Positions 1 through 41,061 of a DNA stretch of 64,000 nucleotides are shown one piece after another (position 1 is the first letter of the stretch; each line of letters begins with the position of its first letter). The notes below the pieces were generated by a model. It was not told where the DNA came from. It was given only the letters and a program-made list of their open reading frames with translations, and searched no databases. Made by a program: the position numbers and the translations under genes. This stretch comes from Streptomyces sp. MUM 178J. GTDB lineage: Bacteria > Actinomycetota > Actinomycetes > Streptomycetales > Streptomycetaceae. The stretch spans positions 1 through 64,000 of the forward strand of contig NZ_JADWYQ010000033.1 of NCBI RefSeq assembly GCF_022414575.1. The letters are read 5' to 3'.

Positions 1-1336
1 CACCCAGCACATCCACACGACCCACGGCCACCTCGGGATCCGCCACCACCGCACGCAACACCCGCTCGAAGCAACGGAGGATGCGGTCGGCCTGCTCGTG
101 GTCGAAGAGGTCGGGGCGGTAGTCGATGCGCACATGCACGCCGACGGCGGTGCGGGAGACGACGAGGGTCAGAGGGAAGTGCGTGGCGTCGCGGCCCTTG
201 GCACCGACCAGGCGAAGTCCGGAGTCCAGCGGCGCGGCGGCGGACGGATCCACCGGGTAGTTCTCCACCAGGACGGTGGTGTCGAACAGTTCACCGACGC
301 CGGCGAGCGCCTGGATCTCGGCGAGGCCCAGGTGCTGGTAGGGGCCCAGGTCGGACTGTTCGTTCTGGATCCGGACGACCGCCTTGGACCAGGCATCCTC
401 CTGGTCGAGCGTCACTCGCACCGGGACGGTGTTGATGAACAGGCCGACCATGGACTCGATGCCCGGCACCTGCGCGGGGCGGCCGGCCACGGTCGTTCCG
501 AAAACGACGTCTTCGCGGCCCGTCAGGCGGCCGAGGACGACCGCCCAGGCGAGCTGGACGACGGAGTTGAGCGTCACCGAAACGGTCGTCGCCAGTTCCG
601 CGAGGCCCTTACCGAGCTCGGCCGGGAGCAGGCGCTCGACGCGCTCCGGCATCAGGGCGTGGCGGGTCGCGTCGGCCGGCGCCAGGCGGGTGGCGTCCTC
701 GACGCCGGCGAGGGTGCGGCGCCAGACGTTCTCGCTCGCGGTCCGGTCCTGGGCGCTGAGCCACTGCAGGTAGTTCTTGTAGGGGGTGACCGCGGGCAGG
801 GCGCTCTCGCCATGCTCGTACACAGTGAACAGCTCGCGCAGCACGACCGGCATGGACCAGCCGTCGAGGAGGATGTGGTGATTGGTGACCACCAGTCGGT
901 GCTGTCCGGCTCCGCGGCGGATCAGCAGGGCGCGGACCAGCGGTGGGTGGGCCAGGTCGAAGCGCTCGGCGCGGTCCTCGTCGGCGAGCCGGACCAGTTC
1001 GGCCTCCTGGTCGGCTTCGGCCAGCCCGGTCAGATCGGCTTCGCGCCAGGGCACCTCGGCGGCGCGGAGGATGAACTGCACCGGCTTCCCGGAGCGGACG
1101 GGGCGGAAGCCGGCGCGCAGGTTGGCGTGGCGCCGCAACAGGGCCGCCAGGGCGCCCTTGAGTCGGGCCGTGTCGAGCGGCCCCTCCAGGTCGACCGCCA
1201 GCTGAACGGCGTAGACGTCCGGGCCCTCGCCGTCGTCCAGCAGGGAGTGGAAGAACATGCCTTCCTGGAGAGGCGAGAGGGGCAGGACACCCTCAAGGCC
1301 CGACGTCTTCTTCACAGATCGGCTGTTGTCGCTCAC
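1..1336 (-). CDS. Non-ribosomal peptide synthetase, N-terminal condensation domain (partial, runs off left edge)
   Basis: This is the start of a second NRPS that would accept the peptide from the 4742-aa synthetase upstream. The GTG start at 1336 overlaps the upstream stop as GTGA, so the two genes are translationally coupled. About 445 residues are visible and form one condensation domain. It opens with [13 protein letters not shown], and the catalytic motif HHILLDGWS lies near residue 150. The visible part ends in the C-to-A linker, so the adenylation domain lies outside the window. Following a synthetase that ends in an epimerase, this should be a DCL-type C domain that accepts a D-configured donor. 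That is inference from order. No thioesterase or MbtH protein is visible here. Confidence 0.93.
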
Positions 1337-4300
1337 GTCAGGTCCTCCAGTCCGGCCAGGCCGGCTTCCAGCTCGTCGATCTCGTCCCGGAGCAGGTCCA
1401 CCAGGGAGAGGTCGGATGTCGTCAGAAGGTCTGTGCCGGCGGGGCCGGCGTGGGTGGTGCTGTAGCGCGTGAGGGCGTCGAGTGCCTCGAACCACAGGGT
1501 GGTCAGGGACTGAACGTCCGCTTCGTCGAGGAGGCCTCCGGGCCAGGACCAGGACACGCTGAGTTCGGGTCCGGCCGGCCGGTCGTGCGTCACAGCGTTG
1601 ACTTCCAGGCAGTGCGCGAACGGCAGGGCCTGGTCGGCGGGGGCGATGGTGACGTCCTCCGGCGCCGCGCCCCAGTCGGCCGGGCCGGTGTTCTCGGTTC
1701 GGACGCGGCCCAGGTAGTTGAAGCCGACCTGTGGCTGCGCGCCGTCACGCAGGAGTGCGGAGGTGCGCGGGTTCAGGTAGCGCAGCAGCCCGTAGCCGAC
1801 GCCCTTGTCGGGGACCGCCCGCATCTGCTCGTGGACGCGGCGCAGCGCGGTGCCGGCGGCGGGTGCGCCGTCCCTGATCTCGTGCCACTTGACGCCCGGG
1901 TCGAGGCGCAGCGGGTGCATGACGGTGAACCAGCCCATGGTGCGGGAGAGTTCGGCTTCTCCGTCCTCGGCGCGGCCGTGGTTCTCCAGGTTCAGCAGGA
2001 CGCCCGGCCCGGCGGCTGTGCCGCGCCGGCGGGTGCGCCGCCATTCGGCGAGGGCCAGGGCGAGCCCGGTGAGCAGGACCGCGTCGACGCCGACGCCCGT
2101 AGCGGCGGGCACGGTCGTCAGCAGGGCTTCCGTACGGTCGCCCGGGAGGGTGCACGTGTGGTGCCGGGCGGTGGCCCGGGTGTCCACGGCGGGGTCGAGC
2201 GGACGGGTTCCGAGCTGTGCGTCGGCCTCCATCGTCATGCGCTCCCACAGCGGGAGTTCCGCCTCGGCCGCGCCGGTGAGGGCGCGGGCGGTGAGGTGCT
2301 CCGCCCAGGTGCGGAAGGAGGTGCCGACGGGGTCGACGGCCGGCGTACGGCCGGATTCCGCCTCGGCCCAGCAGTGCATCAGGTCGGGGACGACGATGCG
2401 CCAGGAGACGCCGTCGACGACGAGGTGGTGCAGCAGCACCAGGAGTCGTCCGGGCTGCTCGGGGCCCGCGTCGAACCAGACGACGCGGACCATGGCACCC
2501 GTGTCGGGATCAAGCGACCGGCGGGCCGTCTCGGCCTCGGTGGTGAGCAGTGCGGTGAGGGCCTCCTCGGGGACGGCGCCGATGTCGACCCGGCGCAGGC
2601 AGTCCGCGGCGTCGGTCCTGCCCGCCGGGGGAACCTCCAGGCGCCACTGGCCGGGGACGGTCCGGTCGAGGCGGGCCCGCAGCAGGTCGTGCCGGTCGAG
2701 CACCGCCTGGACGGCGGTCCGCAGGGACTCCTCGCCCAGGCCGAGCGGGGTGCGCAGGAGCACGGACTGGTTGAAGCCCTCGATGGGGCCGCCCAGTTCG
2801 CGCAGCCATTCCATGATCGGGGTCGGCAGCACGGTGCCGGTGCCGTCGTCCGCTGTCCGGCCGACGGCCGCTTCCGGTTCGGTCGCGGCGAGGGCCAGGG
2901 CCTCGACGGTCTGGTGGCGGAAGACGTCGCTGGGCGTGAGCACGAGGCCCAGCTGGAGGGCGCGGCTGACGACTTGGATGGAGACGATGCTGTCGCCGCC
3001 CATGGCGAAGAAGTTGTCGTCGACCGCCACTTCGGGTACGCCGAGCAGGTCGGCGAAGAGGCCGCAGAGCAGCTGTTCCCGCTCGTTGCGCGGGCCGCGG
3101 CCGCCGCTGCCCGTGTAATCGGGCGCGGGCAGCGCCCTGCGGTCGACCTTGCCGGTGCGGGTCATCGGCAGCTCGTCGAGCGGTACGAACACGGCGGGGA
3201 CCATGTAGTCCGGAAGCAGGGCCGCGACATGGGCCCGCAGGGCGGCGGAGTCGAGTGCGGCACCGGCCCCGGGGACGACGTAGGCGATCAGACGCCGGTC
3301 GCCGGGCCTGTCCTCGCGGACGACGACGACGGCCTGGGCGGTGCCCTCGTGGGAGGCCACCGCGGCCTCGACCTCGCCGAGTTCGATGCGGAAGCCCCGG
3401 ACCTTGACCTGGGCGTCGGCGCGGCCGGCGAACTCCAGGGTTCCGTCGGCCCGCCACCGGACCCGGTCGCCGGTGCGGTACATGCGCGACGAGGTGGGTC
3501 CGTAGGGGTCGGCCACGAACCGTTCGGCGGTCAGGCCGGGCCGGCCGATGTAGCCGCGGGCCAGTCCCTCGCCGGCCACGTAGAGCTCACCGGTGACGCC
3601 CGGCGCCACCGGCCGCATGCGCGCGTCCAGGACGTAGAGGCGGGTGTTGTCGAGGGCACGTCCGATGGGGAAGGAGTTGCGGGCGATGTCCTCCTCGGTG
3701 AGCGCGTGGTGGACGACGCACAGGGTGGTCTCAGTCGGGCCGTAGCTGTTGGTGATGCGGGCGCCGGCGGTCTGATCCAGGACGGTGCGGACCGCGGCGG
3801 CCGAGGCCGTGTCGCCGCCCACGTAGATGTCGCGCATGTCACGGAAGCTCTCGGCGTGGTTCTCGGCGAGCAGCCGGAAAACGCCCTCGGCGAAGAGGCC
3901 GACGGTGACCCGGTGCCGGGTCATGAGAGCCGCCAGGGAGGCGATGTCGGTCGCCTCGGCGTCCGAGGCGATGATGCGGGCGCCGCTCAGCAGCGGCCCC
4001 CACAGTTCGTAGGTGGAGGCGTCGAAGGACGGCGGCGAGTGCATCAGCGACCGGTCGTCGGGGCCGTGTCCCCAGTAGTGGTCGTGGACGAGGCCCGCGA
4101 CGTTGCGGTGGGTGATCGCGACGCCCTTCGGCTCTCCGGTCGAACCGGAGGTGTACATGATGTACGCCAGCTGGTCCGGGTGCGGCAGCGGCCAGGAGGC
4201 CCCGTCGCCGCCGTCGGCCGCGGGGAGTTCGCCGTCGACGAGGACGACGTCGGCGGGTCCGTCGGGCACCCGCTCGGCGGTCGCGCGGTCCGTCAGGACC

Positions 4301-7300
4301 ACGGCCGTCGCGGTGCCCTCCAGGATCTGCCGGACGCGCGCCTCGGGGCTGCGGGGGTCCAGCGGTACGTAGACGGCACCCGCCTTGCCGATGGCGAGGG
4401 TCGCCACCACGTGGTGGGCCCGGCCGCCGAGCAGCAGGGCCACCCGGTCCTCGGGCCGGACGCCCCGGGCCAGCAGGGCCCGGGCGAGGCGGTCGGAGCG
4501 CTCGTCGAGTTCAGCGTAGGTGAGTTCGCCGTCCTTGTGGACCAGGGCGACGGCCTGCGGGGTACGGGCGGCCTGGCCGCGGAACAGCTCGGGCAGGGAT
4601 GCGTCGGGCCGCTCGCGGCCGGTGTCGTTGCGGACGACCAGCAGGTCGTGCAGTTCCTCCCCCGACAGCACCGGCAGGGCGCCGATCGGCTCGTCCGGGT
4701 CGGTGGCCGCGGCGGTCAGCAGCCGCTCCAGGCGCGCCGCGACGGCCTCGACGGTGGGACGGTCGAAGAGGTCGAGGGCGTACTCCAGGGAGCCGAGGAT
4801 GCCGTCGGGGGCGCCGTCCTCGGTGTGGCGTTCCCACACGCTGACCGACAAGTCGAACTTGGCGACGGGCGCGTCGGCACCCTCGACCTCCACCCGCAGT
4901 CCGGGCAGGTCGGCCTGGGGCCGCTCGGTGTTGTGCAGGATCAGCATGATCTGGAAGAGCGGATGGCGGGCGAGGGACCGCACCGGGTTGAGCTCCTCCA
5001 CCAGCCGCTCGAACGGCAGCTCCTGATGGCTGTACGCGTCCAGGTCGGTCTCCCGGACCCGGGCGAGGAGCTCGCTGAAGGTGGGGTCGCCTCCGGTGTC
5101 GGTGCGCAGCACCAGGGTGTTGACGAAGAACCCGACGAGGTCGTCGAGGGCGTCGTCGGTGCGGCCCGCGATCGGCGTGCCGAGGGGGATGTCGGTGCCG
5201 GCTCCCAGCCGGGTCAGGAGGGCGGCCAAGCCGGCCTGGAGCACCATGAAGAGGCTGACTCCGTTGACCCTGGCGAGGGCGAGCAGGGCGGCGTGCGCCT
5301 CAGCGCCGATCTCGACCGGTACCCTGTCGCCGCGGTAGCTGGCCACCTCCGGGCGCGGCCGGTCCGTGGGCAGGTCCAGTTCCTCGGGCAGCCCGTCGAG
5401 AGCGGACTTCCAGTGGCCGAGCTGGCGGTTCAGCTCGCTCGCGGGGTCGTTCTCGTCGCCCATGACCCGGCGCTGCCACAGCGTGTAGTCGGCGTACTGG
5501 ACCGGCAGCGGCTGCCAGGCCGGTTCGCCGCCGCGGCAGCGTGCCGCGTACGCCCGGGAGAGGTCGCCCAGCAGCGGTACGAGCGACCAGCCGTCGCTGG
5601 CGATGTGGTGGGTGACCAGGACCAGCACGGCGTCACCGGCGGTGTCCGTTGTGAGCAGCCTGGCCCGCAGCGGAGGTTGGACGGTGAGGTCGAAGCCGCG
5701 CAGGACGGTCTCGGTGATGGCCTGCTCCAGTTCCCCGTGCGCGACGGCGGTCTCCTCCAGGACGGGGGCGCCTTCGACGGGGCCGAGGACGTGCTGGCAG
5801 GGTGTGCCGCCGGACTCCGGGAAGACGGTGCGCAGGCTCTCGTGGCGGCCGGCGACGTCCCTCAGCGCGGCGCGCAGCGCCGGCCGGTCGATCTCGCCCT
5901 CCAGGCGCAGCACGAGCGGGACATTGTAGGTGGCGTTGGGGCCTTCGAGGCGGTTGAGGAACCACAGCCGGGTCTGGGCGAAGGACAGCGGGACGCGGTC
6001 GCCGCGGTCGGCGGGGACCAGCGCGGGCCGGCTCTCGCCTGACATGCCGAGCCGGGCGGCGATGCCGGCGACGGTCGGGGCGTCGAACAGCGCCTTCACG
6101 CCGATGCGGGCACCGAGCGTGCCGGCGATGCGGCTGAGCAGGCGCATCGCGAGCAGCGAATGGCCGCCGAGCGCGAAGAAGTCGTCGTCGATGCCGACCC
6201 GCCGTACGCCGAGCACGTCGGTGAAGAGACCGCAGAGGATCTCCTCTTCCGGGGTGCGGGCGGCGCGGCTTGCCGGGCTGCCTCCGGCGGCCTGCGGGGC
6301 CGGGAGGGCGGCCTCGTCGACCTTGCCGTTGGCGGTCAAGGGGAGCGCGTCCAGGACGACCACCGCGGTGGGGGTCATGTACTCGGGGAGCGTCCGGGCG
6401 ACGTGGGCCCGGATCAGGTCGGGATCGGACTGCGTGCCGGCGGCGGGGACGACGTACGCGGTGAGCCGCTTGTCGTCGCGCTCGTCCTCGCGGACCACCG
6501 CGAGCGCCTGCCGCACCCCGGGAGCCGACAGCAGTACGGACTCGACCTCGCCGAGTTCGATCCGGAAGCCCCGGATCTTCACCTGGTTGTCGACACGGCC
6601 GATGTATTCGAGCACTCCCGCGGAGTTCCAGCGGACGCGGTCGCCGGTGCGGTACATGCGCGAGCCGGCGGGGCCGAACGGGTCGGCCACGAAGCGCTCG
6701 GCGGTGCCGCCGGGACGGCTGAGGTAGCCGCGGGCGAGGCCGGTGCCGGCGATGTAGAGCTCGCCGGGGACCCCGTCGGGGACGGGGAGCAGGGCCGTGT
6801 CCAGGACGTAGGCGCGTGTGTTCCACATGGGGCGGCCGAGCGGGACCGGACCGGCCGGCAGGGGCGCGCCTGCCGGCGCCCGGTGGTCGAGGACACCGAC
6901 GGTGGTCTCGGTCGGGCCGTAGTGGTTGACCACGGTGGCCTGCGGGTGCCGGGCACGCCAGTCGGCGATCTGCTCGGCGTGCAGGGCCTCGCCGCCCGTC
7001 ATCAGTTCGACGGTCGGGGCGCAGCTGTCGGGAAGGGTGTCGAGGATGGGCAGGTGGCTGGGGGTGATCTTGAGGAAGGTCAGGCCGCCCGGCACGTCGA
7101 GTTCCTCGTCGAGGTCGGCGATGTGGAGGCAGCCGCCCGCGAGGAGGGTGCCGTAGAGGGTGGTCAGTCCGAGGTCGAAGGAGAGCGGCGAGTGGAGCAG
7201 GGTGCGGCCGCTGAGGCCGGAGTACTCCGCGGCGCAGCGCACGACGTAGTCCACGAGGGCGCGCTGGTCGACCACGACACCCTTGGGGGTGCCGGTGGAG

Positions 7301-10300
7301 CCGGAGGTGTAGACGACGTACGCCGCGTCGCCGGGGCCGACGGGCGCGGACCGCTCGTGGTCGCCGATGTCGCCGTCGTCCTGCGCGGCGAGGGCCCCGG
7401 CCGTCTCGGGGGCGTCCAGGACCAGGACCGTGGCCGGTCCGTCGGCCAGGTGGGGGGCGGCGCGCAGGGTCTGCGCGGTGGTCAGCAGGAGGGCGGGGCG
7501 CGCGTCGGCGAGGAGCTGCGCGACGCGGTCGCCCGGGTGTTCCGGGTCCAGGGGGAGGTAGGGGGCGCCGGCCTTGCCGACAGCGAGCATCGTCTCGACA
7601 GCGTCGGCCGAGCGCGGCAGGGCGAGGGCGACCAGGGTGGTGTGATCCGCGCCGTGCTCCAGCAGGAGGCGGGCGAGGTGGTTGGCTCGGCGGTTGAGCC
7701 GGCCGTAGCTGAGCTCCTGCGGACCGCAGACGACGGCGGGCGCGTCGGGCGTGCGGGCCGCCTGGGCCTCGAAGAGCTGGGGGAGGGTCGCGTCGGGGGT
7801 GGCGTGCGCGGTGTCGTTGCGGGTGACGAGCGCGTCGTGGCGTTCGGTTCCGTCCATGACGGCGAGGCGGCCGATGGGCCGGCCGGGCTGCTCCAGGGCG
7901 GACTCGATGAGGCGGACGAACCGGCCGACGAGCGCCTCGACCGTGGAGCGGTCGAACAGGTCGGCCGAGTAGCCGGCGGCCGCCACCAGGCCCTGCGGTT
8001 CGCCCTGCTCGTCGTACTGCTCGGCGATGCTGAACAACAGATCGAACTTGGCCATGTCCGGGTCGATCTGGGCGACTTCGGCACGCAGCTGGGGGAAGTG
8101 CACCTCGGGGCGCTCAAGGTTCTGAAGCACCAGCTTGGTCTGGAACAGCGGGTGGCGGCTCAGGGAGCGGCGCGGGTTGACCGCCTCCACCAGGCGCTCG
8201 AACGGCAGCTCCTGGTGGGCGAAGGCGGCGATGTCCGCCGTGCGGGTGCGCTCCAGCAGTTCGCTGAAGGTCGGGTCGCCGGAGGTGTCGACGCGCAGCA
8301 CGAGGGAGTTGACGAAGAAGCCGACCAGGTCGTCGAGGGAGTCGTCGGTACGGCCCACCACGGAGCCGCCGATGGGGATGTCGGTGCCGGCGCCGAGCCG
8401 GGTCAGCAGCGCCGCGAGGGCAGCGTGCAGGGTCATGAAGGTGGTGACGCCGTGGGTGCGGGCGAGGCGCAGCAGTGAGCGGTGCGTCTCGGGGCCGAGG
8501 CCGAAGGGGACGAGTCCGCCCCGGCGGCTGGGCAGCGCGGGCCGCGGCCGGTCCGTCGGCAGCGCGAGTTCCTCGGGCAGGCCGGCCAGGGCCTGCTTCC
8601 AGTAGGCGATCTGGCCGCAGATCACGCTGTCCGGGGCGCTCTCGTCACCGAGGCGGTCGCGCTGCCACAGGGTGTGGTCGGCGTACTGGACGGGCAAGGG
8701 GGTCCATGCGGGTGCCTGCCCGTCGAGGGCGGCACCGTAGGCGACGCTCAGGTCGCGGGCCAGGGGCGCGGTGGACCAGCCGTCGCTCGCGATGTGGTGG
8801 ACGACAACGACGAGGATGTGCGTCTGCGGGCCGATCACCAGCAGCCGGGCGCGGAGCGGGACCTCGCGGGTGAGGTCGAAGCCGCGGCCGGCGGCCTCGG
8901 CGATCAGCGCGTCGGCGTCACGTCCGGCGGCGTCGGCCACCTCCAGCACGGGACGTGCCCGGTCGGGGTCGAGGACGACCTGGCAGGGCACCCCGTCGCT
9001 CTCGGGGTAGACGGTGCGCAGGCTCTCGTGCCGGCGGGCGACGTCGGCGAGGGCCTGTTCCAGGGCCGTGACGTCGAGGCTTCCGGACAGCCGCAGCACG
9101 AGAGGGATGTTGTAGGTGCCGTCGGCCGGGTCCATCCGGTTGAGGAACCACAGGCCGCGCTGGGCGTACGACAGGGGCAGCGTCTCGGGGCGGTCCCGGC
9201 GCGCCGGGCGGGTGCGGGCCGGTCCGGCGGCCTGGACGCGGGCGGCGAGTCCGGCAACGGTGGGCGCCTCGAACAGGGCGGCGACGTCGAGGTCCACGGC
9301 GAGGGCGGCGCGGATCCGGGCGACGAGCCGGGTGGCCAGCAGGGAGTGGCCGCCCAGTGCGAAGAAGTCGTCGTCGACGCCGACGCGGTCGAGTCCGAGC
9401 AGCTCGGCGAAGGTGCCGCAGAGGATCTCCTCCTGCGGGGTGCGGGGCTCACGGCGCACCACCGTGGTGAAGTCCGGTGCGGGCAGGGCCTTGCGGTCGG
9501 TCTTGCCGTTCGCGGTGAGCGGCATGGCGGACAGCGGCACGAGCACGGCGGGAACCAGGTGCTCGGGCAGTACGGCGGCGAGCGCCTCGCGTACGGCGCG
9601 CACGTCCTGCATGCCTACCACATAGCCGACGAGCTGGTGGTGGCCGCCGGGGCCGGGGACCACGGCGGCCACGGCGTTGGTGACCCCCTCCTGGCCCCTG
9701 AGGTGGGCCTCGACCTCGCCCAGTTCGATGCGCTGGCCGCGGATCTTCACCTGGGCGTCGCGGCGGCCGATGAACTCCAGCTGGCCGTCGGGGCGGTGGC
9801 GCACCCGGTCGCCGGTGCGGTACATGAGGGTGCCGTCGTCGGCGAACGGGTCGCCGACGAAGGTGGCCGCGGTCCGGTCGGGGTCACCGAGGTAGCCCCG
9901 GCCGACGCCGACGCCCGCGACGTACAGGTCGCCGGGGGTACCCGGCGGCACGGGCTGGAGTTCGTCGCTCAGTACGTACAGCCGGGTGTTGCGGACCGCC
10001 CGGCCGATGGGGGCGGTGATCCGCCGCTCGTCGAGGGTGCGCGCCGTGATGACGGCGTGCGTGACGTCGTCAGAGCACTCGGTGGGACCGTAGGCGTTCA
10101 TCATCGCGATGCCGGGGAACCGGGCGAACCAGCGCCGGCACAGTTCGGTCGGCAGTTCCTCACCGGTGACGACCAGCCAGCGCAGTCCGGGCAGTTCCGG
10201 GACCTCGGCGCCTTCGTCCCAGGTGTCGAGGGCCGCGCGCAGCAGGGACGGCACGACCTCCAGGACAGTGACCCCGTCGTGTGCGACCAGGCGGAACAGA

Positions 10301-28990: not shown

Positions 28991-29018
28991 CCGCCTTCTC
29001 ACCGTGAACGGGGCATGG

Positions 29019-29921: not shown

Positions 29922-29926
29922 GAACC

Positions 29927-31989: not shown

Positions 31990-31991
31990 TC

Positions 31992-32056
31992 CTGAGATTC
32001 CCCCCATGACTGAGGCCCCGCCGATGGCGGGGCCTCAGTCATGGGGGGAATCTCAG
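31992..32056. terminator. Convergent bidirectional terminator with a perfect 31-bp stem
   Basis: The arms 31992-32022 and 32026-32056 are exact reverse complements with a three-base loop (GAT). The structure begins three bases after the SbnB-like stop. Its right arm contains the stop codon of the convergent acyl-CoA dehydrogenase gene (32053-32055). It would terminate both transcripts and block read-through in either direction. Confidence 0.95.
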
Positions 32057-33219
32057 TAGGACTTGGGCAGTCCCAGCGTGTAGTGGCAGACGAAGTTGAG
32101 GATCATCTCCCGGCTCACCGGGGCGATCCTGGGCACCCGGGAGAGCGTCAGCAGCGAAGCGAGCCCGTACTCGGCGGTGAGCCCGTTCCCGCCCAGGGTG
32201 TGGATCGCCTGGTCGACCGCTCGGGCGCACGCCTCGGCCGCGGCGTACTTCGCCATGTTCGCGGCCTCCCCCGCGGCCATGTCGTCGCCGGCGTCGTACA
32301 GTTCGGCCGCCCTGCGCGTCATCAGCCGCGCCAGTTCCAGTTCGATGTGGATCCGCGCGAGCGGATGGGCGACGGCCTGGTGCGCGCCGATCGGGGCCGA
32401 CCACACCTGCCGGGAGCGGGCGTAGCCGACCGCCTTGTCCAGGGCGTGCCGCCCCAGGCCCACCGCGAACGCGGCGATCATGATCCGCTCGGGGTTGAGC
32501 CCGGCGAACAGCTGTTGCAGACCGGCGCCCTCGTGGCCGACCAGCGCCTCGGCCGGCAGCCGCACCTCATCGAGGAAGAGCTGGAACTGGCGTTCCGGCG
32601 CCGACAGTTCCATCTCGATCTCACGGAACTCGAAGCCGGGGGTGTCCCGCGGTACGACGAACAGGCACGGCTTCAGCTTGCCGCTGCGGGCGTCCGCCGT
32701 GCGGCCAACCACCATCGTGGCGTCGGCCTCGTCCACGCCGGAGACGAACACCTTACGGCCGCTGAGCAGCCATTCGGCGCCGTCCCGGCTGGCGACGGTG
32801 GTCAGTTGGTGGGAGTTCGATCCGGCGTCCGGTTCCGTGATGCCGAAGGCCATCCGGGAGGTTCCGTCGGCGAGCCCCGGCAAGAGCCGGCGTTTCTGCT
32901 CCGGGGTACCGAAGCGGCTGATGACCGTCCCGCAGATCGCGGGCGACACCACGAGCATGAGCAGCGGGCTGCCGGCCGCGCCCAGTTCCTCCAAGACGAT
33001 GGAGAGCTCGGTGATGCCGCAGCCACCGCCGCCGTACTCCTCGGGAAGGTTGACGCCCAGGTAGCCCAGGCGCCCCGCCTCGGACCAGAGTTCCTCCGGC
33101 GTCCGCGGATCCGGCCCGCCCTGCCCGGTTCCGCGGGCGAAGCCGGCGACGGCCTCCCGCAGCGCCCGTCGCTCCGCGTTCTCCGCCAGGGTGCCGGCCT
33201 CCCGGCGCCGGGCGCTCAC
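32053..33219 (-). CDS. Acyl-CoA dehydrogenase family protein
   Basis: A 388-aa flavoprotein of the acyl-CoA dehydrogenase fold. Visible are LPEEYGGGG, FGITEPDAGSNSHQL, NPERIMIAAFAVGLGRHAL and HTLGGNGLTAEYGLASL. The last block is the region that holds the catalytic base in several subfamilies. The reading frame extends further upstream, but a GTG at 33219 overlaps the CaiB-type stop as GTGA, and that start removes an Arg/Pro-rich non-family extension. It should desaturate an acyl thioester, probably the fatty or branched acyl group destined for the peptide N-terminus (inference). It differs clearly from the prolyl dehydrogenase at 22.3-23.6 kb. Confidence 0.9.
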   Translation of the reverse strand: MSARRREAGTLAENAERRALREAVAGFARGTGQGGPDPRTPEELWSEAGRLGYLGVNLPEEYGGGGCGITELSIVLEELGAAGSPLLMLVVSPAICGTVISRFGTPEQKRRLLPGLADGTSRMAFGITEPDAGSNSHQLTTVASRDGAEWLLSGRKVFVSGVDEADATMVVGRTADARSGKLKPCLFVVPRDTPGFEFREIEMELSAPERQFQLFLDEVRLPAEALVGHEGAGLQQLFAGLNPERIMIAAFAVGLGRHALDKAVGYARSRQVWSAPIGAHQAVAHPLARIHIELELARLMTRRAAELYDAGDDMAAGEAANMAKYAAAEACARAVDQAIHTLGGNGLTAEYGLASLLTLSRVPRIAPVSREMILNFVCHYTLGLPKSY

Positions 33220-34364
33220 CCGGCCACCTCCGCGAGGATCTCCGCCGTGTGCTCCCCGTGCCCGGGAGCGGGGCGGCGCAGCGAGTCGAGGCCGGATCCG
33301 AACCGTACGGGGAAGCGGACCTGTCGGCGGGCCTGCGTGGTCGCGGAGCCCGGCAGGGTGCCCACCAGGTTCCGGTCGAGGACGTGTTCGTCCGCGAGGA
33401 ACGCGCCGGGTGAGTCGTACACGGGGGCCCAGGGCAGGTCCAGCCCGGAGAGCGCGTCCGTCCACCAGGCCAGGTCCCTGCGCCGGAAGACGTCCGTGAG
33501 CAGGGCCCTGACGTCCTCGCGGGCCCGGGTGCGGTCGGCCCGCCGGTCGTAGGAGTCGTCGTCGAGCTCGGGGAAGTCCGCGGCGAAGGCCTTCCGGAAG
33601 GTCAGCCAGAACTTGTCCTCGAAGGTGGCGAAGGCGATCCGCTGCCCGTCGCCCACGAAGAACACGTCATTGTCCCCCGTGACGAGCGGACTGTCGGCGG
33701 GATCCGCGAGGCCGAGCAGGGGCAGGGCGAGCGGTCCGGCCCAGCCCGCGGCCGCCTCGTGCAGCGACACGTCGAGGTGCTGACCCTCGCCGTTCGCGGC
33801 GGCGGCGCCGACGGCCACTACCGTGGACAGCGCCGCGTACATCGCGCCCGCCAGGTCGGCCACCCGCACCCCGACCCGGTCGACGCTCTCACCCGGGCGG
33901 TGAGGGACGGCGAAGAACCCGGACAGGGCGAGGAAGTTGAGGTCGTGGCCCGGCCGGGAGGCGTAGGGGCCGCTCTGCCCGAAACCGGTGATCGAGCACA
34001 GCACCACCCGCGGGTTCACAGACCGCAGCCGTTCGTAGCCCAGCCCCATGGAGTCCAGGACGCCGGGCCGGTAGCTCTCCACGACGGCGTCGCTGCGCTC
34101 CACCAGCCGCAGCAGCGTCTCGCGGCCGGCCGGTTCCCGCAGGTCCAGCACGACCGACCGCTTGTTGCGGTTCAGCGCGGCGAACGTCTCCGGGTCCACC
34201 AGGCGTCCGTAGTCGCCGCCGTCGGGACTCTCCACCTTGATGACGTCGGCTCCAAGGTCGGCCATGAGGACCGTCGCGAAACCCCCGGGCAGCAGACGCG
34301 AAAGATCGAGGATCCGAATTCCGCCAAGTCCGGGCCAGCCGGCCGTCACATCCACCTGTGTCAC
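33216..34364 (-). CDS. CaiB/BaiF family (class III) CoA-transferase
   Basis: A class III CoA-transferase of about 382 aa. The family start GIRILDLSRLLPGGFATVLMADLGADVIKVE is followed by NRNKRSVVLDLR. The VESYRPGVLDSMGLGYE segment and a candidate catalytic Asp in DLAGAMYAALS lie downstream. A longer frame exists, but the second of two adjacent GTG codons, at 34364, has GGAGG six bases upstream and restores the normal family length. It is the first gene of a two-gene leftward operon with an acyl-CoA dehydrogenase. Together they probably activate or exchange CoA on an unusual acid (inference). Confidence 0.9.
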   Translation of the reverse strand: MTQVDVTAGWPGLGGIRILDLSRLLPGGFATVLMADLGADVIKVESPDGGDYGRLVDPETFAALNRNKRSVVLDLREPAGRETLLRLVERSDAVVESYRPGVLDSMGLGYERLRSVNPRVVLCSITGFGQSGPYASRPGHDLNFLALSGFFAVPHRPGESVDRVGVRVADLAGAMYAALSTVVAVGAAAANGEGQHLDVSLHEAAAGWAGPLALPLLGLADPADSPLVTGDNDVFFVGDGQRIAFATFEDKFWLTFRKAFAADFPELDDDSYDRRADRTRAREDVRALLTDVFRRRDLAWWTDALSGLDLPWAPVYDSPGAFLADEHVLDRNLVGTLPGSATTQARRQVRFPVRFGSGLDSLRRPAPGHGEHTAEILAEVAG

Positions 34365-34594
34365 CACTCCCCTCCGGCCCGCCTTCCGGGTGAGGGCGGG
34401 CACAAGCGCCCGTACGCTAACTGGATTTCGGCACTCCCCCCCTGCACGGAAGCTGTACGGGTCCTGCCTCCCTCGGCCACATCCCTCTCGAGAGGGAGCG
34501 CGTTCCTGCCACCGGGGGATCCGGCACCGGCCGGCTCGCGGTTGGCTTGAGCAACACAAGGCAGTCCGGCAGTGCATCATCGAGGAGAGCTTCC
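34365..34594. promoter_or_regulatory. Divergent promoter region between CoA-transferase and acyl-CoA ligase genes
   Basis: This 230-bp gap contains a 16-bp perfect palindrome, TCCCTCTCGAGAGGGA, at about 34482-34497. Downstream of it is an array that recurs at 39.3 kb: GAGGGAG, four bases, TTCCTGCCACCGGGGGATCC, then G, 15 bases and CGGTTGGCTTGAG, ending near 34552. GAGGAG seven bases before the ATG at 34595 is the ribosome-binding site. Confidence 0.65.
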
Positions 34595-36268
<1,674 letters not shown>

Positions 36269-36314
36269 CCGCCGCCCCGCCCACGCCCCTCGCACACACC
36301 GGAGCACCCCAACC

Positions 36315-37358
36315 ATGAAGATCTCCATGCAGCTCAAGTACGACACCAACATCGTCACGGCGGCCGATCAGGTCGCCGAACTCGAACGGGCCGGGCTCGA
36401 CCTGATCTGGGTCCCAGAGGCGTACGGCTACGACGCCCCCAGCTTCATGGGCTACCTCGCCGCCCGCACCGAGCGGATCGGCATCGGCTCCGGCATCCTG
36501 TCCGTCTTCAGCCGCACCCCGGCGCTGCTCGCGATGACCGCAGCAGGTGTCGACGCCCTGTCGGGCAGCCGCTGCCACCTGGGACTCGGCTCCTCCGGGC
36601 CGCAGGTCGTCGAGGGCTTCCACGGGGTCCCGTACGCCGCGCCGGTCGCCCGTACCCGCGAGACCATCGAGGTCATGCGTGCCTTCTGGCAGCGGGACAA
36701 GGCCGTCGAGTACAGCGGCCGTTCCGTGCGGCTGCCCCTGCCCGCGGGCGAGGGGAGCGGGCTCGGCGTCCCCATGAAGCTGCTCACGCCGCCCGTGCGC
36801 CCCTCCGTTCCCGTGTGGGTGGCGGCACTGGGGCCGAAGAACGTCCGCATGGCCGCGGAAACCGCCGACGGATGGCTGCCGATGTTCTTCGTCCCCGAGT
36901 GGTGCGACCGCGCCTGGGGCGAGGCGCTCCGGGGCGGTGCGGCCGCCCGCGACCCGCGGCTGGGCCCGCTGCAGATCTCCGCCGGCGGTCTGCTGGCCAT
37001 CGGTCCGGACGCCGCCCGTGCCCGGGAACTGGCGCGGGGCCAGCTCGCCCTGTTCATCGGCGGCATGGGCGCGCCCGGCCACAACTACTACTACAACCTG
37101 GCCGCCAGGTACGGCTACGCCCGGGAGTCCGAGACCATCCAGCGGCTCTTCCTGGCGGGCGACAAGGCCGGGGCGGCCGCCGCCGTTCCCGCCGCGCTGC
37201 TGGAGGCGACGACCATCTGTGGCACGGAGAGCTACGTGAAGGACCGCGTCGATGCCTACCGTCAAGCCGGCGTGACCCATCTCCAGGTCGTCCCGGTGCC
37301 CCAGGACGGGCAGAGCGAGGCCTCGGTCGTCGCGCGCCTGCGCGACCTCGTGGGCTGA
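36315..37358 (+). CDS. LLM-class flavin-dependent (F420-type) oxidoreductase
   Basis: A 347-aa luciferase-like TIM-barrel oxidoreductase. The N-terminus DQVAELERAGLDLIWVPEAYGYDAPSFMGYLAARTERIGIGSGIL and the VWVAALGPKNVRMAAETADGWLPMFF block are typical of F420-dependent members, such as those acting on tetrahydromethanopterin. The true substrate cannot be predicted. It follows the acyl-CoA ligase by 46 bp on the same strand, so it is probably co-transcribed. It may reduce or oxidise an acyl, terpenoid or amino-acid intermediate. Confidence 0.88.
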   Translation: MKISMQLKYDTNIVTAADQVAELERAGLDLIWVPEAYGYDAPSFMGYLAARTERIGIGSGILSVFSRTPALLAMTAAGVDALSGSRCHLGLGSSGPQVVEGFHGVPYAAPVARTRETIEVMRAFWQRDKAVEYSGRSVRLPLPAGEGSGLGVPMKLLTPPVRPSVPVWVAALGPKNVRMAAETADGWLPMFFVPEWCDRAWGEALRGGAAARDPRLGPLQISAGGLLAIGPDAARARELARGQLALFIGGMGAPGHNYYYNLAARYGYARESETIQRLFLAGDKAGAAAAVPAALLEATTICGTESYVKDRVDAYRQAGVTHLQVVPVPQDGQSEASVVARLRDLVG

Positions 37359-37377
37359 CCCGGGCGCGCCGGCGCTC

Positions 37378-38028
37378 TCAGCGCAGCTCGATGAAGCCCG
37401 CCTCGTAGGCGAACACCACCGCCTGCGTCCGGTCCCGGGCCCCCAGCTTGGCCAGGGTGCTGCTGACATGGGTCTTGACCGTCTGCACCCCGAGGAACAG
37501 CTCCGCGGCGATCTCCGCGTTCGACATCCCCTTGCCCATCAGGCGCAGCACCTCCGCCTCCCGCTCCGTGAACTGCACGTGGGACAGACCGCCTCCGGCG
37601 TCCCGCTGGAGCCGTCCCGAGAGCAGCCCGCGGATGGCGGTGGGGAAGAGCACCGAGTCCCCCGTGGCCACCGTGCGCACCGCCTGGACGATCTCGGCCG
37701 GCCGGGAGCGCTTGAGCAGGAACCCCGCGGCCCCTTCGCGCAGCGCCTCGTAGACGTAGTCATCGCGCTCGAAGGTGGTGATCACCAGCACGCGGGGCGG
37801 TTGCGGTACCCGCGCCATCAGCTCGCGGGTGGCCGTGATGCCGTCGACCTGGGGCATCCGGACGTCCATGATCACCACGTCGGGCCGCAGCTCCAGCACC
37901 TTCGTGACCACCTCGGCGCCGTCGGACGCCTCGCCGACCACAGTGATTCCCGGGCTGTTGCCGAGGATTGCGGAGATTCCGGTCCGGACGAGTTCCTCGT
38001 CGTCCACGAGCAGCACAGAAATGGTCAT
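37378..38028 (-). CDS. NarL/LuxR-family two-component response regulator
   Basis: A 216-aa response regulator. The receiver domain covers residues 1-120: acidic pair DDEE near residue 9, phospho-acceptor Asp in VVIMDVRMP near residue 53, and Lys in FLLKRSRP. A LuxR-type HTH covers residues 148-210 (FTEREAEVLRLMGKGMSNAEIAAELFLGVQTVKTHVSSTLAKLGA). It is one base downstream of the sensor kinase stop. The start is the ATG at 38028; the frame extends upstream only through kinase sequence. The likely targets are the promoters at 34.5 and 39.3 kb, because of a shared motif (inference). Confidence 0.95.
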   Translation of the reverse strand: MTISVLLVDDEELVRTGISAILGNSPGITVVGEASDGAEVVTKVLELRPDVVIMDVRMPQVDGITATRELMARVPQPPRVLVITTFERDDYVYEALREGAAGFLLKRSRPAEIVQAVRTVATGDSVLFPTAIRGLLSGRLQRDAGGGLSHVQFTEREAEVLRLMGKGMSNAEIAAELFLGVQTVKTHVSSTLAKLGARDRTQAVVFAYEAGFIELR

Positions 38029-38029
38029 G

Positions 38030-39259
38030 TCAAGGTCCCAACCGTAGGGGCAGAGAGGCACTGACGGTCCAGCGTCCAGACTCGGCTCCGGCGGTGGCCC
38101 GGCCACCCAGGAGTGCGGCCCTCTCGCGCAGGCTGCGCAGGCCCTTGCCCGTACCCGACGCCCGGCCGGCCGCCTCCACCAGGGTATTCGCCACCGAGAG
38201 TTCCAACTGGTCCCCCCTGATATCCAGGACGACGTCCACGGCCGCACCGGGGGCGTGCTTCATGGCGTTGGTCAACGACTCCTGGAGGATGCGGTACGCC
38301 TCGCGGGTGACCACACCGGGTACCCCCTCGAAGCTCGCGGCCGCCCGGCACGTCACGGTCACTCCGGCCGCCCGGCTCGCCTCCAGCAACGGCCCGATGT
38401 CCTCCAGCGTGGGGCGCGCCGCCCGGGCCGGACCGCCCTCCTCCTGCTCCTTCAGATAGCCGAGGGTGCGCTCCAGGTCCTCCAGCGCGCGGCGGCCCGC
38501 CTCCTCGATGGCGGTCAGCGCACGGACCACGAAGTCCCGGTCCACGTCGATCAGTTCCCGGGCGGCCCCGGCCTGGAGGACGCTCGCTGTGAGGGCGTGT
38601 CCGATGGAGTCGTGCAGTTCGCCCGCGAGCCGGTTGCGCGCCAGGAGGTCATCGGCCCGCCGTTCCGCGTCCGCGAGCCGCTCCGCCGCCGAGGGGCCCA
38701 AAAGCCTTGTGGACAGGGTGAGTTGAACCTTGCCCGCACCGACGACGACGGCGGCGATCAGGAGCAACAGGGGCGGCACGAAGGCCAGGTACCAGATGTA
38801 CTCATGGCCCCCCGGTATCTCCAGGCCCATGACCCGGTGGACCCCCTCGACCGCCGGCGCAGTCGCCACTGTCCCGGTCAGGGACAGCAGTTGGGCCATC
38901 AGGCTGGCGAACAGCAGCCCCCACCAGACCCGCACGACGAGCCAGACACCCGTGCGCCAGCGCTCCGTGAGGCTGTTCGCCTTGGCCAGGCTGATCTCGT
39001 TCTCGTCCCGCGGTGCCAGCAGCAGCCGGGCCTGGATCCCCTCGGCGTGCCGTACGCCCGGCAGCATCCCGAGCAGCAGCAGGAGGGGCACCGGGACCAG
39101 CGCCGACGAGACCAGGGTCCGCACGAGGGACTCCGAGAAGCCCGGATAGACCAGCACGCACACCGGTCCCACCGCCGCGCTGACCAGCAGGTGCAGGCCG
39201 CGGGTGTACGTACGCCCCCGGGCCAGGACGGAAAGCATGGACGCGGGCGTGGCGCGCAA
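38030..39259 (-). CDS. NarL-family sensor histidine kinase (HisKA_3)
   Basis: A 409-aa membrane sensor kinase. Four hydrophobic segments occupy roughly residues 20-180. The phospho-accepting His lies in ELHDSIGHALTASV near residue 213, and a HATPase domain follows (ILQESLTNAMKHAPGA, GKGLRSLRERAALLGG). A TTG at 39259 is chosen as start because GGGAGGAG lies 8-9 bases upstream. The ATG at 39238 has no comparable site, and a much longer frame upstream runs antisense to the ABC gene. It is coupled to the response regulator (one-base gap) and divergent from a two-gene ABC transporter, the classic layout of an antibiotic-sensing module. Confidence 0.92.
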   Translation of the reverse strand: MRATPASMLSVLARGRTYTRGLHLLVSAAVGPVCVLVYPGFSESLVRTLVSSALVPVPLLLLLGMLPGVRHAEGIQARLLLAPRDENEISLAKANSLTERWRTGVWLVVRVWWGLLFASLMAQLLSLTGTVATAPAVEGVHRVMGLEIPGGHEYIWYLAFVPPLLLLIAAVVVGAGKVQLTLSTRLLGPSAAERLADAERRADDLLARNRLAGELHDSIGHALTASVLQAGAARELIDVDRDFVVRALTAIEEAGRRALEDLERTLGYLKEQEEGGPARAARPTLEDIGPLLEASRAAGVTVTCRAAASFEGVPGVVTREAYRILQESLTNAMKHAPGAAVDVVLDIRGDQLELSVANTLVEAAGRASGTGKGLRSLRERAALLGGRATAGAESGRWTVSASLPLRLGP

Positions 39260-39343
39260 CGTGTGTCTCCTCCCTCCCCAGAGGGAGGAGATTCCCGCCT
39301 CCGGGGGATCCGCTGTTCGCGGTGAAACGGTTGGCTTAAGGAC
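39260..39343. promoter_or_regulatory. Compact divergent promoter/operator between sensor kinase and ABC transporter
   Basis: This 84-bp gap contains an 11-bp inverted repeat with a four-base loop, TCTCCTCCCTC-CCCA-GAGGGAGGAGA, at about 39266-39291. One arm doubles as the kinase ribosome-binding site. To its right is the motif also seen at 34.5 kb: GAGGGAG, four bases, TTCCCGCCTCCGGGGGATCC, then G, 15 bases and CGGTTGGCTTAAG. CGGTTGGCTTAAG ends four bases before the ABC gene ATG, so that mRNA is likely leaderless or nearly so. Confidence 0.65.
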
Positions 39344-40309
39344 ATGAAGAGCGACAGGGAATTCACGAACGGCGCAGGAGCCACACCGGCCATCGACGTA
39401 TCGGGCCTGGTCAAGGCCTACGGTAACAAGACCGTGGTGAACGGCTTGACCTTCCAGGTGCAGGCCGGAGTGGTCACCGGCTTCCTCGGCCCCAACGGCG
39501 CCGGGAAGTCCACGACCATGCGGATGATGCTCGGTCTCGACCGCCCCACCGACGGCCGCGTGCTCATCTCCGGCCGGGCCTACGGGGAGCTGGGCGAGCC
39601 CCTGCGGCACGTGGGTGCCCTGCTGGACGCCGGCGCCGCCCACCCGGGCCGGACCGCCCGCGACCACTTGCTCTGCATGGCCCGCGCCAACCGCATCCCC
39701 GCCTCGCGGGTCGACGAGGTACTGGAGCAGGTCGGCATGGCCACTGTGGCCAAGCGCCGCGTCGGCGGATTCTCCCTGGGCATGCGCCAGCGCCTGGGCA
39801 TCGCCGCCGCCCTGCTCGGCGACCCGCGGGTGCTGATCCTGGACGAGCCGGTCAACGGCCTGGACCCCGAAGGGATCCGCTGGCTGCGGCACTTCCTGAA
39901 GGACCTGGCGGCCGAGGGCCGCGCGGTGCTGATCTCCAGCCACCTGATGACCGAGATGGCCCTCCTCGCCGACCGGCTGATCGTCATCGGCAAGGGCAGC
40001 CTGCTGGCCGACGTCTCCATGGCCGAGTTCGCCGCGGAGCACGGGCGCAGCCGGGTGCGGGTGCGCTCCACCGAGCCGGTGCGGCTGCGCGCCGCCCTGG
40101 AACGCAAGAAGCTGCGCGTGGAGGCCGCCGCCGACGGCAGCCTGGAGGTGTACGGGACCGATGTCGTCGAGGTCGGCCGGATCGCGTCCCACGAAGGCAC
40201 CTCGGTCCTGGAGTTGTCGCATGTCGAGGACTCTCTGGAAGACGCATTCATGCGCATGACCGCCGACTCGGTGGAATATGTGGCACGACCCCTTGGAAAG
40301 GTGGCCTGA
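39344..40309 (+). CDS. ABC transporter ATP-binding protein (DrrA-type export)
   Basis: A 321-aa ATPase with Walker A GPNGAGKST near residue 52, signature FSLGMRQRLG near residue 140, Walker B VLILDEP near residue 165 and the switch His in LISSHLMTEM. A C-terminal extension of about 90 residues follows, as in DrrA/BcrA-type exporters. The permease begins two bases after its stop. Together they would export, and give resistance to, a membrane-active peptide. Regulation by the divergent two-component system is likely from position and from the shared promoter motif. The start ATG has almost no leader, so a leaderless transcript is plausible. Confidence 0.95.
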   Translation: MKSDREFTNGAGATPAIDVSGLVKAYGNKTVVNGLTFQVQAGVVTGFLGPNGAGKSTTMRMMLGLDRPTDGRVLISGRAYGELGEPLRHVGALLDAGAAHPGRTARDHLLCMARANRIPASRVDEVLEQVGMATVAKRRVGGFSLGMRQRLGIAAALLGDPRVLILDEPVNGLDPEGIRWLRHFLKDLAAEGRAVLISSHLMTEMALLADRLIVIGKGSLLADVSMAEFAAEHGRSRVRVRSTEPVRLRAALERKKLRVEAAADGSLEVYGTDVVEVGRIASHEGTSVLELSHVEDSLEDAFMRMTADSVEYVARPLGKVA

Positions 40310-40311
40310 AC

Positions 40312-41061
40312 ATGTCCGTCAACGCAGTCCTCTACTCGGAGTGGACGAAGATCCGCTCGGTCCGTTCGGTCGCCTGGGCCCTGCCCCTGGCCGCTGCCCT
40401 CCTCATCGGCATCGGCGCCGGCGTGACCGGCTCGGTCGGCGCGGCCGAGTCCGACGCGAAGAACTTCGACCCGGTCCAGCTCGGCTACTACGGCCTCTTC
40501 TTCGCTCATGTCGTCGTGATCGCCTTCGCGGTCCTGGTGGTCGGGAACGAGTACAACACCGGCTCCATCCGCACGTCCCTGGCCACCGTTCCCCGGCGCG
40601 GCCTCTTCTACGGCGCCAAGCTGACCACCGGTGCGGCGCTGGCCCTGGCGGCCGGAGTGGTCGCCTCGGCCGGCACCTTCTTCGCCTCGCAGAACCTGCT
40701 CGGCGAGCACGGCGTCGCCTTCGGCGACGAGGGAACCGTCCGCGCGGTCACCGCCGGCGCTCTCTACTTCCCGCTCATGGCCGTCATGTGCATGGGCATC
40801 ACGGCGATGCTCCGCAGCCAGATGCTCTCCATGGGCTTCCTCGTACCGGTTCTCTTCCTCGTCTCCCCCGTTCTCGCCGAGATCCCCGGCCTGCGTGCGG
40901 TGGCCTGGTACCTCCCGGACCGCGCCGGCCAGTACGCCCTGCGGGTCAACCTCGACCCGGCGGCCCCGTACAGCCCGGTGGTCGGACTGCTGATCCTCGC
41001 GATCTGGGCGGCCGCGGCGGCGGCGGGCGGCTGGCTCGTGCTCCGCAAGCGTGACGCGTGA
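40312..41061 (+). CDS. ABC transporter permease (ABC-2 type)
   Basis: A 249-aa integral membrane protein with about six hydrophobic segments: near residues 22-40, 60-80, 108-128, 145-165, 172-195 and 222-243. The conserved ABC-2 feature VGNEYNTGSIRTSLATVPRR lies near residue 80. It is the membrane partner of the ATPase two bases upstream. The pair lacks a separate substrate-binding protein, consistent with export. Confidence 0.94.
   Translation: MSVNAVLYSEWTKIRSVRSVAWALPLAAALLIGIGAGVTGSVGAAESDAKNFDPVQLGYYGLFFAHVVVIAFAVLVVGNEYNTGSIRTSLATVPRRGLFYGAKLTTGAALALAAGVVASAGTFFASQNLLGEHGVAFGDEGTVRAVTAGALYFPLMAVMCMGITAMLRSQMLSMGFLVPVLFLVSPVLAEIPGLRAVAWYLPDRAGQYALRVNLDPAAPYSPVVGLLILAIWAAAAAAGGWLVLRKRDA

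Follow-up and report, generated by a model that had tools for sequence, protein, structure and literature searches.

Do the synthetase, precursor and terpene genes gathered on one contig of Streptomyces sp. MUM 178J make one product or two, and what could that product be? The window, a 64,000-nt stretch of contig NZ_JADWYQ010000033.1 (C33), begins at the end of the contig, so the locus is cut at window position 1. Half of a biosynthetic cluster lies here, and the remainder is on C100 and C23 from this genome, the three contigs being joined by synteny only. Profile searches recovered every gene type that a sequence-only reading had named: a nonribosomal peptide synthetase (NRPS), SbnA/SbnB, an Asp hydroxylase, a pyrrole trio, a TrpB2-like enzyme, a terpene cyclase, a prenyl synthase, a glycosyltransferase, acyl-activation genes and an MpaB-like oxygenase, the last via its family profile only (Table 1). 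Past the ABC exporter, the SARP regulators reach about 46.6 kb. The whole cluster probably directs a small ring-shaped lipopeptide with a terpene-made tail, in which one building block probably carries a pyrrole ring in most of the strains compared.

Table 1. Predicted features of the window, with coordinates, strand and supporting evidence
Feature	Position	Strand	Evidence
NRPS2 (second NRPS), first part with the module 5 C domain, truncated at the contig end	1..1336	-	Condensation 1.7e-88
NRPS1, modules 1-4: starter C, A-T, C-A-T, C-A-T, C-A-T, E	1333..15561	-	profile matches
Isoprenyl diphosphate synthase	15796..16863	+	PF00348 4.8e-48, two DDxxD motifs
Glycosyltransferase, optional	16930..18081	+	profile match
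TauD-family Fe/2-oxoglutarate hydroxylase, candidate Asp beta-hydroxylase	18160..19101	-	PF02668 1.3e-32, HxE motif
Enoyl-CoA hydratase/isomerase family enzyme (ECH)	19132..19947	-	profile match
Esterase, cassette gene	19934..20770	-	PF00756
Standalone A domain, cassette gene	20767..22365	-	profile match and code DLFYLALVC
Prolyl-carrier dehydrogenase-like flavoprotein, cassette gene	22349..23569	-	PigA 386 bits, RedW 370 bits
TrpB2-like PLP enzyme, cassette gene	23566..24966	-	629 bits (cut-off 366), 547 bits (cut-off 519)
Carrier protein, cassette gene	24963..25247	-	PF00550 1.5e-5
Type II thioesterase	25436..26209	-	profile match
Aldehyde dehydrogenase	26453..27895	+	profile match
Class I terpene synthase	27968..28990	+	PF19086 4.2e-38, DDQFD and NDLFSCEKE motifs
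MpaB/Lcp-family oxygenase, distantly related to trans-anethole oxygenase	28965..29921	+	family profile
SbnA-like, 2,3-diaminopropionate synthesis	29927..30961	+	243.5 bits (cut-off 349.95)
SbnB-like, 2,3-diaminopropionate synthesis	30961..31989	+	182 bits (cut-off 326.9)
Acyl-CoA dehydrogenase	32053..33237	-	profile match; start uncertain
CoA-transferase family III	33216..34580	-	PF02515 5.5e-90; start uncertain
Acyl-CoA ligase, FadD-like (AMP-ligase)	34547..36268	+	profile match; start uncertain
F420-dependent LLM-class oxidoreductase	36315..37358	+	TIGR03559 424 bits (cut-off 335)
Response regulator	37378..38247	-	profile match
Gene adjoining response regulator, perhaps sensor kinase	38255..39325	+	no Pfam match
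ABC exporter ATPase and membrane protein	39344..41061	+	profile match
Two SARP-type regulators	41149..43344, 43605..46616	-	profile match

Related clusters and the assembly line

The same kind of cluster was found in 12 relatives, one of them a Frankia, and counts are given over 13 clusters including our own, some regions being only partly visible. The best 80 of 118 confirmed relatives' loci were kept, and eight of these were taken as cluster members. G257 and G307 share match coordinates and sizes with G001 and G002, so each pair was counted once; G255 (49%) was left out. Homologues of the possible sensor kinase gene (48-52%) occur in G001, G002, G004, G278 and G373.

NRPS1 comprises four A domains and five Condensation matches, the last of which is partial and was read as an E domain. 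Its homologue is present in 12 of the 13 clusters and was not seen on the Frankia contig. The whole assembly line runs from a starter C domain through nine modules with two epimerases to a thioesterase; the last part of G002 NRPS2 matches PF00975 (5.7e-25), and our own contig C23 shows a GWSFG motif. By sequence comparison with PDB entries, the first C domain of the window protein is of the lipid-starter type, its best matches being 7c1k (1.3e-93) and CDA synthetase I 5du9 (5.2e-71), both of which we take to be starter C domains. The A-domain codes, taken from an aligned reading, are DAPILAGVC, DVWEVTADD, DLTKMGHVG and DAYLYGSLC for modules 1-4; in the G002 type, the codes read Asp3-X4-Gly5-Asp6-Gly7, the module 4 code giving no residue. 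Together the codes suggest a putative X-Dap-Asp-X-Gly-Asp-Gly-aromatic-Val peptide. Six of the code strings had no match in the open-access literature of PMC. The SbnA- and SbnB-like proteins fall below the NCBIfam equivalog cut-offs, SbnA and SbnB still being their best-matching models, and the pair may function as SbnA/SbnB.

Terpene arm and acyl tail

The sequence-only reading had allowed for either a single hybrid peptide-terpenoid pathway or two adjacent ones. Terpene and NRPS genes share a contig in 10 of the 13 clusters and lie on separate contigs in three, so the two blocks are not of a kind that never occurs together. Furthermore, the genes for the terpene synthase, MpaB-like oxygenase, CoA-transferase and TauD-family hydroxylase were found in all 13 clusters, which makes two unrelated neighbouring pathways unlikely. 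On the one hand, a lipopeptide pathway and a separate terpenoid pathway could lie side by side under common regulators, as the terpene genes form a plus-strand block of their own and antibiotic clusters can adjoin one another. On the other hand, the shared contig in 10 of 13 clusters extends over two genera with gene order altered in Frankia and G142, and a search at E 1e-20 of the remaining 72 MpaB-family loci (among the best 80 of 118, some of them short) did not reveal this terpene synthase. Two separate pathways are therefore rejected as highly improbable, because the arms remain together across relatives. Of the earlier interpretation, a single hybrid pathway is thus supported, whereas glycosylation as a core feature has to be dropped: a homologous glycosyltransferase occurs in just two of the 13 clusters, our own and G373 (81%), the Frankia region being only partly visible.

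Within a single pathway, extra ispH, dxs and ispG genes in the distal flank, together with the isoprenyl diphosphate synthase, would supply a prenyl diphosphate, from which the terpene synthase would form a hydrocarbon. The ispH-dxs-ispG genes adjoin the synthetase in seven of the 11 clusters read that far and were not found in the other four; their names were confirmed by Pfam in our own genome, which has further dxs and ispH copies. These extra flanking genes support a putative dedicated terpene supply. As far as read, three of 13 clusters have no close isoprenyl diphosphate synthase. A plasmid collection yielded five records, with terpene cyclases at just 30-34%.

Known MpaB/Lcp-type enzymes oxidise or cleave alkenes. 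The MpaB-like protein of the window had by itself no Pfam match up to E 5; in an alignment of 36 hand-picked relatives (L019 and L061 excluded for stops, and L011 also excluded), 29 matched PF09995 (MPAB_Lcp), and the family profile matched trans-anethole oxygenase 8s1j at 2.5e-14. It could cleave or oxidise a C=C bond of the hydrocarbon to an aldehyde, which the aldehyde dehydrogenase, absent as far as read from three of 13 clusters (G007, G008 and G142), would convert to an acid. FadD, with the CoA-transferase, could then activate the acid, and ECH, acyl-CoA dehydrogenase, the F420 enzyme and a CCR-like reductase would perhaps trim it. FadD, ECH and the CCR-like gene were each present in 12 of the 12 clusters where visible, our own included, and acyl-CoA dehydrogenase 2, as far as the clusters were read, is absent from five of 13. 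The starter C domain of NRPS1 would couple the acid to residue 1, the nine modules would build a peptide with D-residues at positions 4 and 8, and the thioesterase would perhaps cyclise the peptide through the side chain of Dap, with Dap coming from SbnA/SbnB and Asp being hydroxylated by the TauD enzyme. For these steps taken jointly, we consider it somewhat probable that a single pathway makes a cyclic lipopeptide of nine residues whose acyl tail derives from a terpene.

The tail could also be an ordinary fatty acid within one pathway, the terpenoid being added in a later step, for instance through an ester bond to hydroxy-Asp. The modifying enzymes (FadD, acyl-CoA dehydrogenase, ECH and the CCR-like enzyme) would suit this, as the substrate cannot be read from the activation genes and genes of the FadD, acyl-CoA dehydrogenase and ECH types are familiar tail genes of known lipopeptide clusters. 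However, we found no conserved late-step transferase, the sole glycosyltransferase being the one in two of 13 clusters, and neither a ketosynthase nor a second standalone carrier among the scanned window genes, a scan above the size of small ORFs. With the oxygenase in all 13 clusters and FadD in all 12 visible, we regard a fatty-acid tail as unlikely and retain the terpene-derived one.

Pyrrole/TrpB2 cassette and module 8

A standalone A domain with a code that we take to be prolyl-type, a prolyl-carrier dehydrogenase-like protein (both its PigA and RedW scores being under the NCBIfam cut-offs) and a carrier protein stand in one gene group, and the pyrrole genes form with TrpB2 a five-gene cassette. 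This gene set recurs in unchanged order in another kind of NRPS locus, seen in two genomes, L173 and L174.

The module 8 code is DASTVA[AC]VS, presumably aromatic-type, in all 10 clusters with the cassette; module 8 and TrpB2 are on different contigs in our own genome, G001, G003, G004, G007 and G008 and were placed by synteny, the placement in G003 being less sure because contig C310 looks misjoined (a module 1-type A domain beside module 8). Two Streptomyces clusters without the cassette were found: in G142 the module 8 code is DVWHFSLVD (serine-type), and G373 is without a module 8 A domain, a serine-type code sitting in its module 7. G142 departs from the others also in modules 1, 4, 5, 7 and 9, which means that the change in its module 8 does not stand alone. 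The Frankia cluster encodes an A-T-E protein with code DASTVAAVC, its best TrpB match being 35%; the code therefore does not require the cassette.

The covariation between cassette and module 8 suggests that the cassette may make a pyrrolyl-alanine-like residue. Proline would be converted to a carrier-bound pyrrole, and TrpB2 would join the pyrrole to a serine-derived unit, giving the residue for module 8. This assignment, taken alone, is tentative and falls somewhat short of an even prospect, and it was kept low because G142 differs in several modules. Only modestly probable is that a pyrrole-2-carboxyl group caps or esterifies the peptide, while module 8 takes tryptophan made separately by TrpB2, or else another aromatic residue. 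The A domain, dehydrogenase and carrier are indeed the usual pyrrole-2-carboxyl set, the module 8 code looks aromatic, and Frankia has the code without TrpB2. Against this, the TrpB2 gene is embedded in the pyrrole operon, overlapping the adjoining gene on either side, and the two are absent together from G373 and G142 and occur together in L173 and L174. The full combination, in which a terpene, once cleaved and oxidised, forms the tail and a portable cassette lets pyrrolyl-alanine, made by TrpB2 from carrier-made pyrrole and serine, replace serine in module 8 whenever the cassette is present, is rather doubtful.

Relation to known systems

If true, isoprenoid metabolism would feed a nonribosomal lipopeptide directly, as its lipid anchor; TrpB2, from a family of which little is known outside tryptophan, would gain a testable job; and the cassette might be movable among peptide assembly lines. 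The open-access literature in PMC gave no match for the combination of terpene tail and pyrrole residue, which subscription journals could hold.

The adjacent SbnA- and SbnB-like genes recall SbnA/SbnB Dap synthesis, from which they differ by sub-cut-off scores and NRPS context. Trans-anethole oxygenase and the MpaB and Lcp oxygenases share the family profile (PF09995), whose known members oxidise or cleave alkenes (PMC3774712); unlike in those systems, the gene here belongs to a lipopeptide cluster and has a terpene synthase gene as its neighbour. With pyrrolyl-carrier pathways of the prodigiosin/pyoluteorin type, the operon has in common a standalone prolyl-type A domain, a PigA/RedW-like dehydrogenase and a carrier, to which it adds TrpB2 and an esterase. 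The acidic calcium-dependent lipopeptides (CDA, friulimicin, laspartomycin) share the starter C domain, acyl ligase, acyl-CoA dehydrogenase, probable Dap at position 2, Asp and Gly modules, D-residues, thioesterase, ABC exporter and regulators. The codes as read, with module 4 giving no residue, do not display the canonical Asp-X-Asp-Gly motif. Unlike those lipopeptide systems, the present cluster has nine modules, a terpene arm served by MEP genes of its own and the pyrrole/TrpB2 cassette.

Gene content and reach of the cluster

The sequence-only reading had placed NRPS, Dap, hydroxy-Asp, pyrrole-type, terpene, glycosyltransferase and acyl-activation genes in one locus, and searches with Pfam and NCBIfam models bore out this list one gene at a time. 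They recovered a group of biosynthetic genes (the first synthetase NRPS1, isoprenyl diphosphate synthase, glycosyltransferase, TauD hydroxylase, ECH and type II thioesterase), a pyrrole block (carrier, TrpB2-like enzyme, prolyl-carrier dehydrogenase-like enzyme, standalone A domain and esterase) and an acyl-activation block (acyl-CoA dehydrogenase, CoA-transferase and FadD, plus an F420 oxidoreductase). A terpene/Dap block (aldehyde dehydrogenase, terpene synthase, MpaB-like oxygenase, SbnA- and SbnB-like enzymes) and a regulation/export block (response regulator with a possible kinase, ABC exporter, two SARP regulators) were also found. The terpene synthase carries the motifs DDQFD and NDLFSCEKE. 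SbnA and SbnB were the top NCBIfam models for the Dap-type pair, both under their own cut-offs, and the PigA and RedW models for the dehydrogenase also scored under theirs. The Mutator-family transposase remnant (PF00872, 7e-62) immediately right of the cluster may mark its border.

Features of the cluster and of compared loci
Feature	Sequence	Position	Strand
NRPS1 (modules 1-4)	window	1333-15561	minus
Glycosyltransferase	window	16930-18081	plus
Pyrrole cassette (five genes)	window	19934-25247	minus
Terpene synthase	window	27968-28990	plus
MpaB-like oxygenase	window	28965-29921	plus
Transposase remnant	window	48499-49068	
Full cluster	G002, C15	419.5-493.3 kb	
P-loop protein (L092)	G002, C15	463.3-464.5 kb	
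Module 8 lacking its A domain (L122)	G373, C4	~7252.5 kb	
Cassette relatives (L177)	G011	4878-14243	

The contig, C33, has 79231 bases within a 6.6-Mb genome of 127 contigs, and the second synthetase gene (NRPS2) is incomplete at window position 1 because this is the contig end. When the MUM 178J genome was searched with a relative's NRPS, the locus proved to continue on C23 (80% identity) and partly on C100, in a C33-C100-C23 join that rests on synteny, not assembly; modules 5 and 7 of this strain were found on neither C23 nor C100. C23 carries, in order, modules 8 and 9, a thioesterase motif, a CCR-like reductase, MbtH, phosphopantetheinyl transferase, an ABC exporter, IspH, Dxs and IspG. 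Pfam verified GcpE (IspG), DXP synthase and LytB (IspH) in this genome, and MbtH, phosphopantetheinyl transferase, ABC exporter and thioesterase in the relative G002; the reductase, presumably CCR-like, was assigned to the zinc-binding dehydrogenase family and nothing narrower. Extra copies of dxs lie on C19 and C15 of the MUM 178J genome, and of ispH on C47.

Conservation and the terpene arm

Among the best 80 of 118 MpaB-like relatives, eight loci (L010-L017, 68-85% identity) also have the cluster's terpene synthase, which was not detected at E 1e-20 in the other 72. A draw of 392 genomes from the genus gave eight with a match at E 1e-80, seven of them at at least 70%, own strain included; two of these seven duplicate G001 and G002. 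The 13 distinct clusters compared (own, G001-G008, G142, G278, G371, G373) show that the cluster is real and conserved, absences being counted as far as the contigs could be read. All 13 hold terpene synthase, MpaB-like oxygenase, CoA-transferase and TauD (cut short by a contig edge in Frankia G006), and FadD, ECH and the CCR-like gene occur in 12 of the 12 visible clusters (F420 enzyme, 11/12 visible). Type II thioesterase and SbnA are each present in 12/13, SbnB at at least 68% in 11/13 (38% in Frankia, none seen in G008), aldehyde dehydrogenase and isoprenyl diphosphate synthase (at least 65%) each in 10/13, and acyl-CoA dehydrogenase (at least 77%) in 8/13. Terpene and NRPS genes share one contig in ten clusters and lie on separate contigs in G001, G003 and G004. 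The flank holds ispH-dxs-ispG in 7/11 (own, G001, G002, G278, G005, G371, G373), with some 15-17 kb between its start and the CCR-like gene in G005 and G371; none was seen in the flank regions as read of G006, G007, G008 and G142. The glycosyltransferase occurs in two clusters (own and G373); the full G002 cluster, ~74 kb, has in its place a 409-residue P-loop protein, which we take to resemble an HPr-kinase relative.

The window's MpaB-like protein matched no Pfam model by itself; 29 of 36 family members matched PF09995 (MPAB_Lcp_cat), and the family profile had a single match up to E 10 among PDB sequences, the trans-anethole oxygenase 8s1j (E 2.5e-14). PMC3774712 describes the conversion of trans-anethole to p-anisaldehyde by such an enzyme. 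The MpaB-like step would convert a terpene C=C bond to an aldehyde, which aldehyde dehydrogenase would oxidise to an acid, FadD and the CoA-transferase would turn into an activated acyl group, and the starter C domain would join to residue 1. We infer such a terpene-derived acyl tail because the terpene, oxidation and activation genes stay with the synthetase across clusters; the lack of a ketosynthase among the window genes scanned and the added MEP genes in 7/11 clusters also support it. Against it count the aldehyde dehydrogenase not being seen in three clusters, and a terpene-acid substrate for FadD that is presumed. The Amycolatopsis thailandensis locus L018 has MpaB-like (56%) and aldehyde dehydrogenase (46%) relatives without the cluster's terpene synthase, and relatives of the cassette A domain and dehydrogenase (41-44%) ~7 kb from the MpaB-like gene.

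Assembly line, pyrrole cassette and module 8

NRPS1 has the order C-A-T-C-A-T-C-A-T-C-A-T-E, and its first C domain best matched, in the PDB, 7c1k/7c1h/7c1p, presumably the rhizomide starter C domain, plus the CDA synthetase I chains 5du9/4jn3. In G002, a single open frame encodes NRPS2, which adds five modules and a thioesterase; module 8 holds an E-type motif. The aligned G002-type codes, with our presumed assignments, are M1 DAPILAGVC (unassigned), M2 DVWEVTADD (basic), M3 DLTKMGHVG (Asp), M4 DAYLYGSLC (unassigned), M5 DILQLGMIW (Gly), M6 DTTKLAVVS (Asp-like), M7 DILQLGMIW (Gly), M8 DASTVAAVS (aromatic) and M9 DALWRGGVF (Val-like); residue 2 is probably Dap, since its code is basic. The readable modules of MUM 178J (M1-M4, M6, M8, M9) match these codes. 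M6 is DLTKMGHVG in G005 and G371, M1 is DALLFGAVA in G007 and G008, and G142 deviates in M1 (DAALFGAVC), M4, M5, M7 (DVWEVTADD), M8 and M9. Six A-domain code strings were not found in the open-access literature search.

The cassette forms a single operon with overlapping reading frames, ordered carrier, TrpB2, dehydrogenase, A domain, esterase, and all five genes occur in 10/13 clusters (own, G001-G005, G007, G008, G278, G371). The M8 code is DASTVAAVS or DASTVACVS in all ten, M8 and TrpB2 lying on different contigs in own, G001, G003, G004, G007 and G008. G373 and G142 lack the block (best TrpB2-type match in the genome 32%). In G142, M8 reads DVWHFSLVD, presumably a serine code, and several other modules differ too; in G373 ~520 residues with the M8 A domain are gone, leaving C-T-E, either a natural or an assembly-made module edit, and the serine-type DVWHFSLVD sits in module 7. 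This covariation of cassette and code suggests that the aromatic residue used by module 8 is probably a product of the cassette. Frankia speaks against it, having an A-T-E protein with DASTVAAVC and no TrpB2. The simplest candidate product would be a pyrrolyl-alanine that TrpB2 forms from serine; this step is tentative and falls somewhat short of even chances, slightly further than before because other modules change in G142.

A TrpB2 relative at E 1e-120 occurs in 22 of the 392 genus genomes; of 23 TrpB2 loci (~4.4 kb each), seven have A domain, dehydrogenase and carrier alongside, four carrier or dehydrogenase only, and 12 none. All five genes recur in identical order (45-60% identity) in another kind of NRPS locus in two genomes (L173, L174), whose A domain DAGSLASVW is the nearest to the M8 type in the compared set, yet at 33-37%. 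In a third context, L177, relatives of the A domain, the dehydrogenase and TrpB2 (39-51%) adjoin a methylaspartate mutase E chain gene. At L175 and L176 (G022, G356) TrpB2 relatives (65-66%) adjoin AMP-binding enzymes, one locus also having carrier, AurF-like and asparagine-synthase-like genes, which points to putative other biosynthetic settings.

The whole combination, a cleaved and oxidised terpene tail plus a portable cassette giving pyrrolyl-alanine in place of serine in module 8, appears less likely than not in its entirety, its odds lowered a little by the same module changes in G142. The open-access literature search met no description of this cluster; in kind, it belongs with the lipopeptide-type NRPS clusters, to which it adds a terpene arm and a pyrrole cassette, the cassette being found elsewhere as well.
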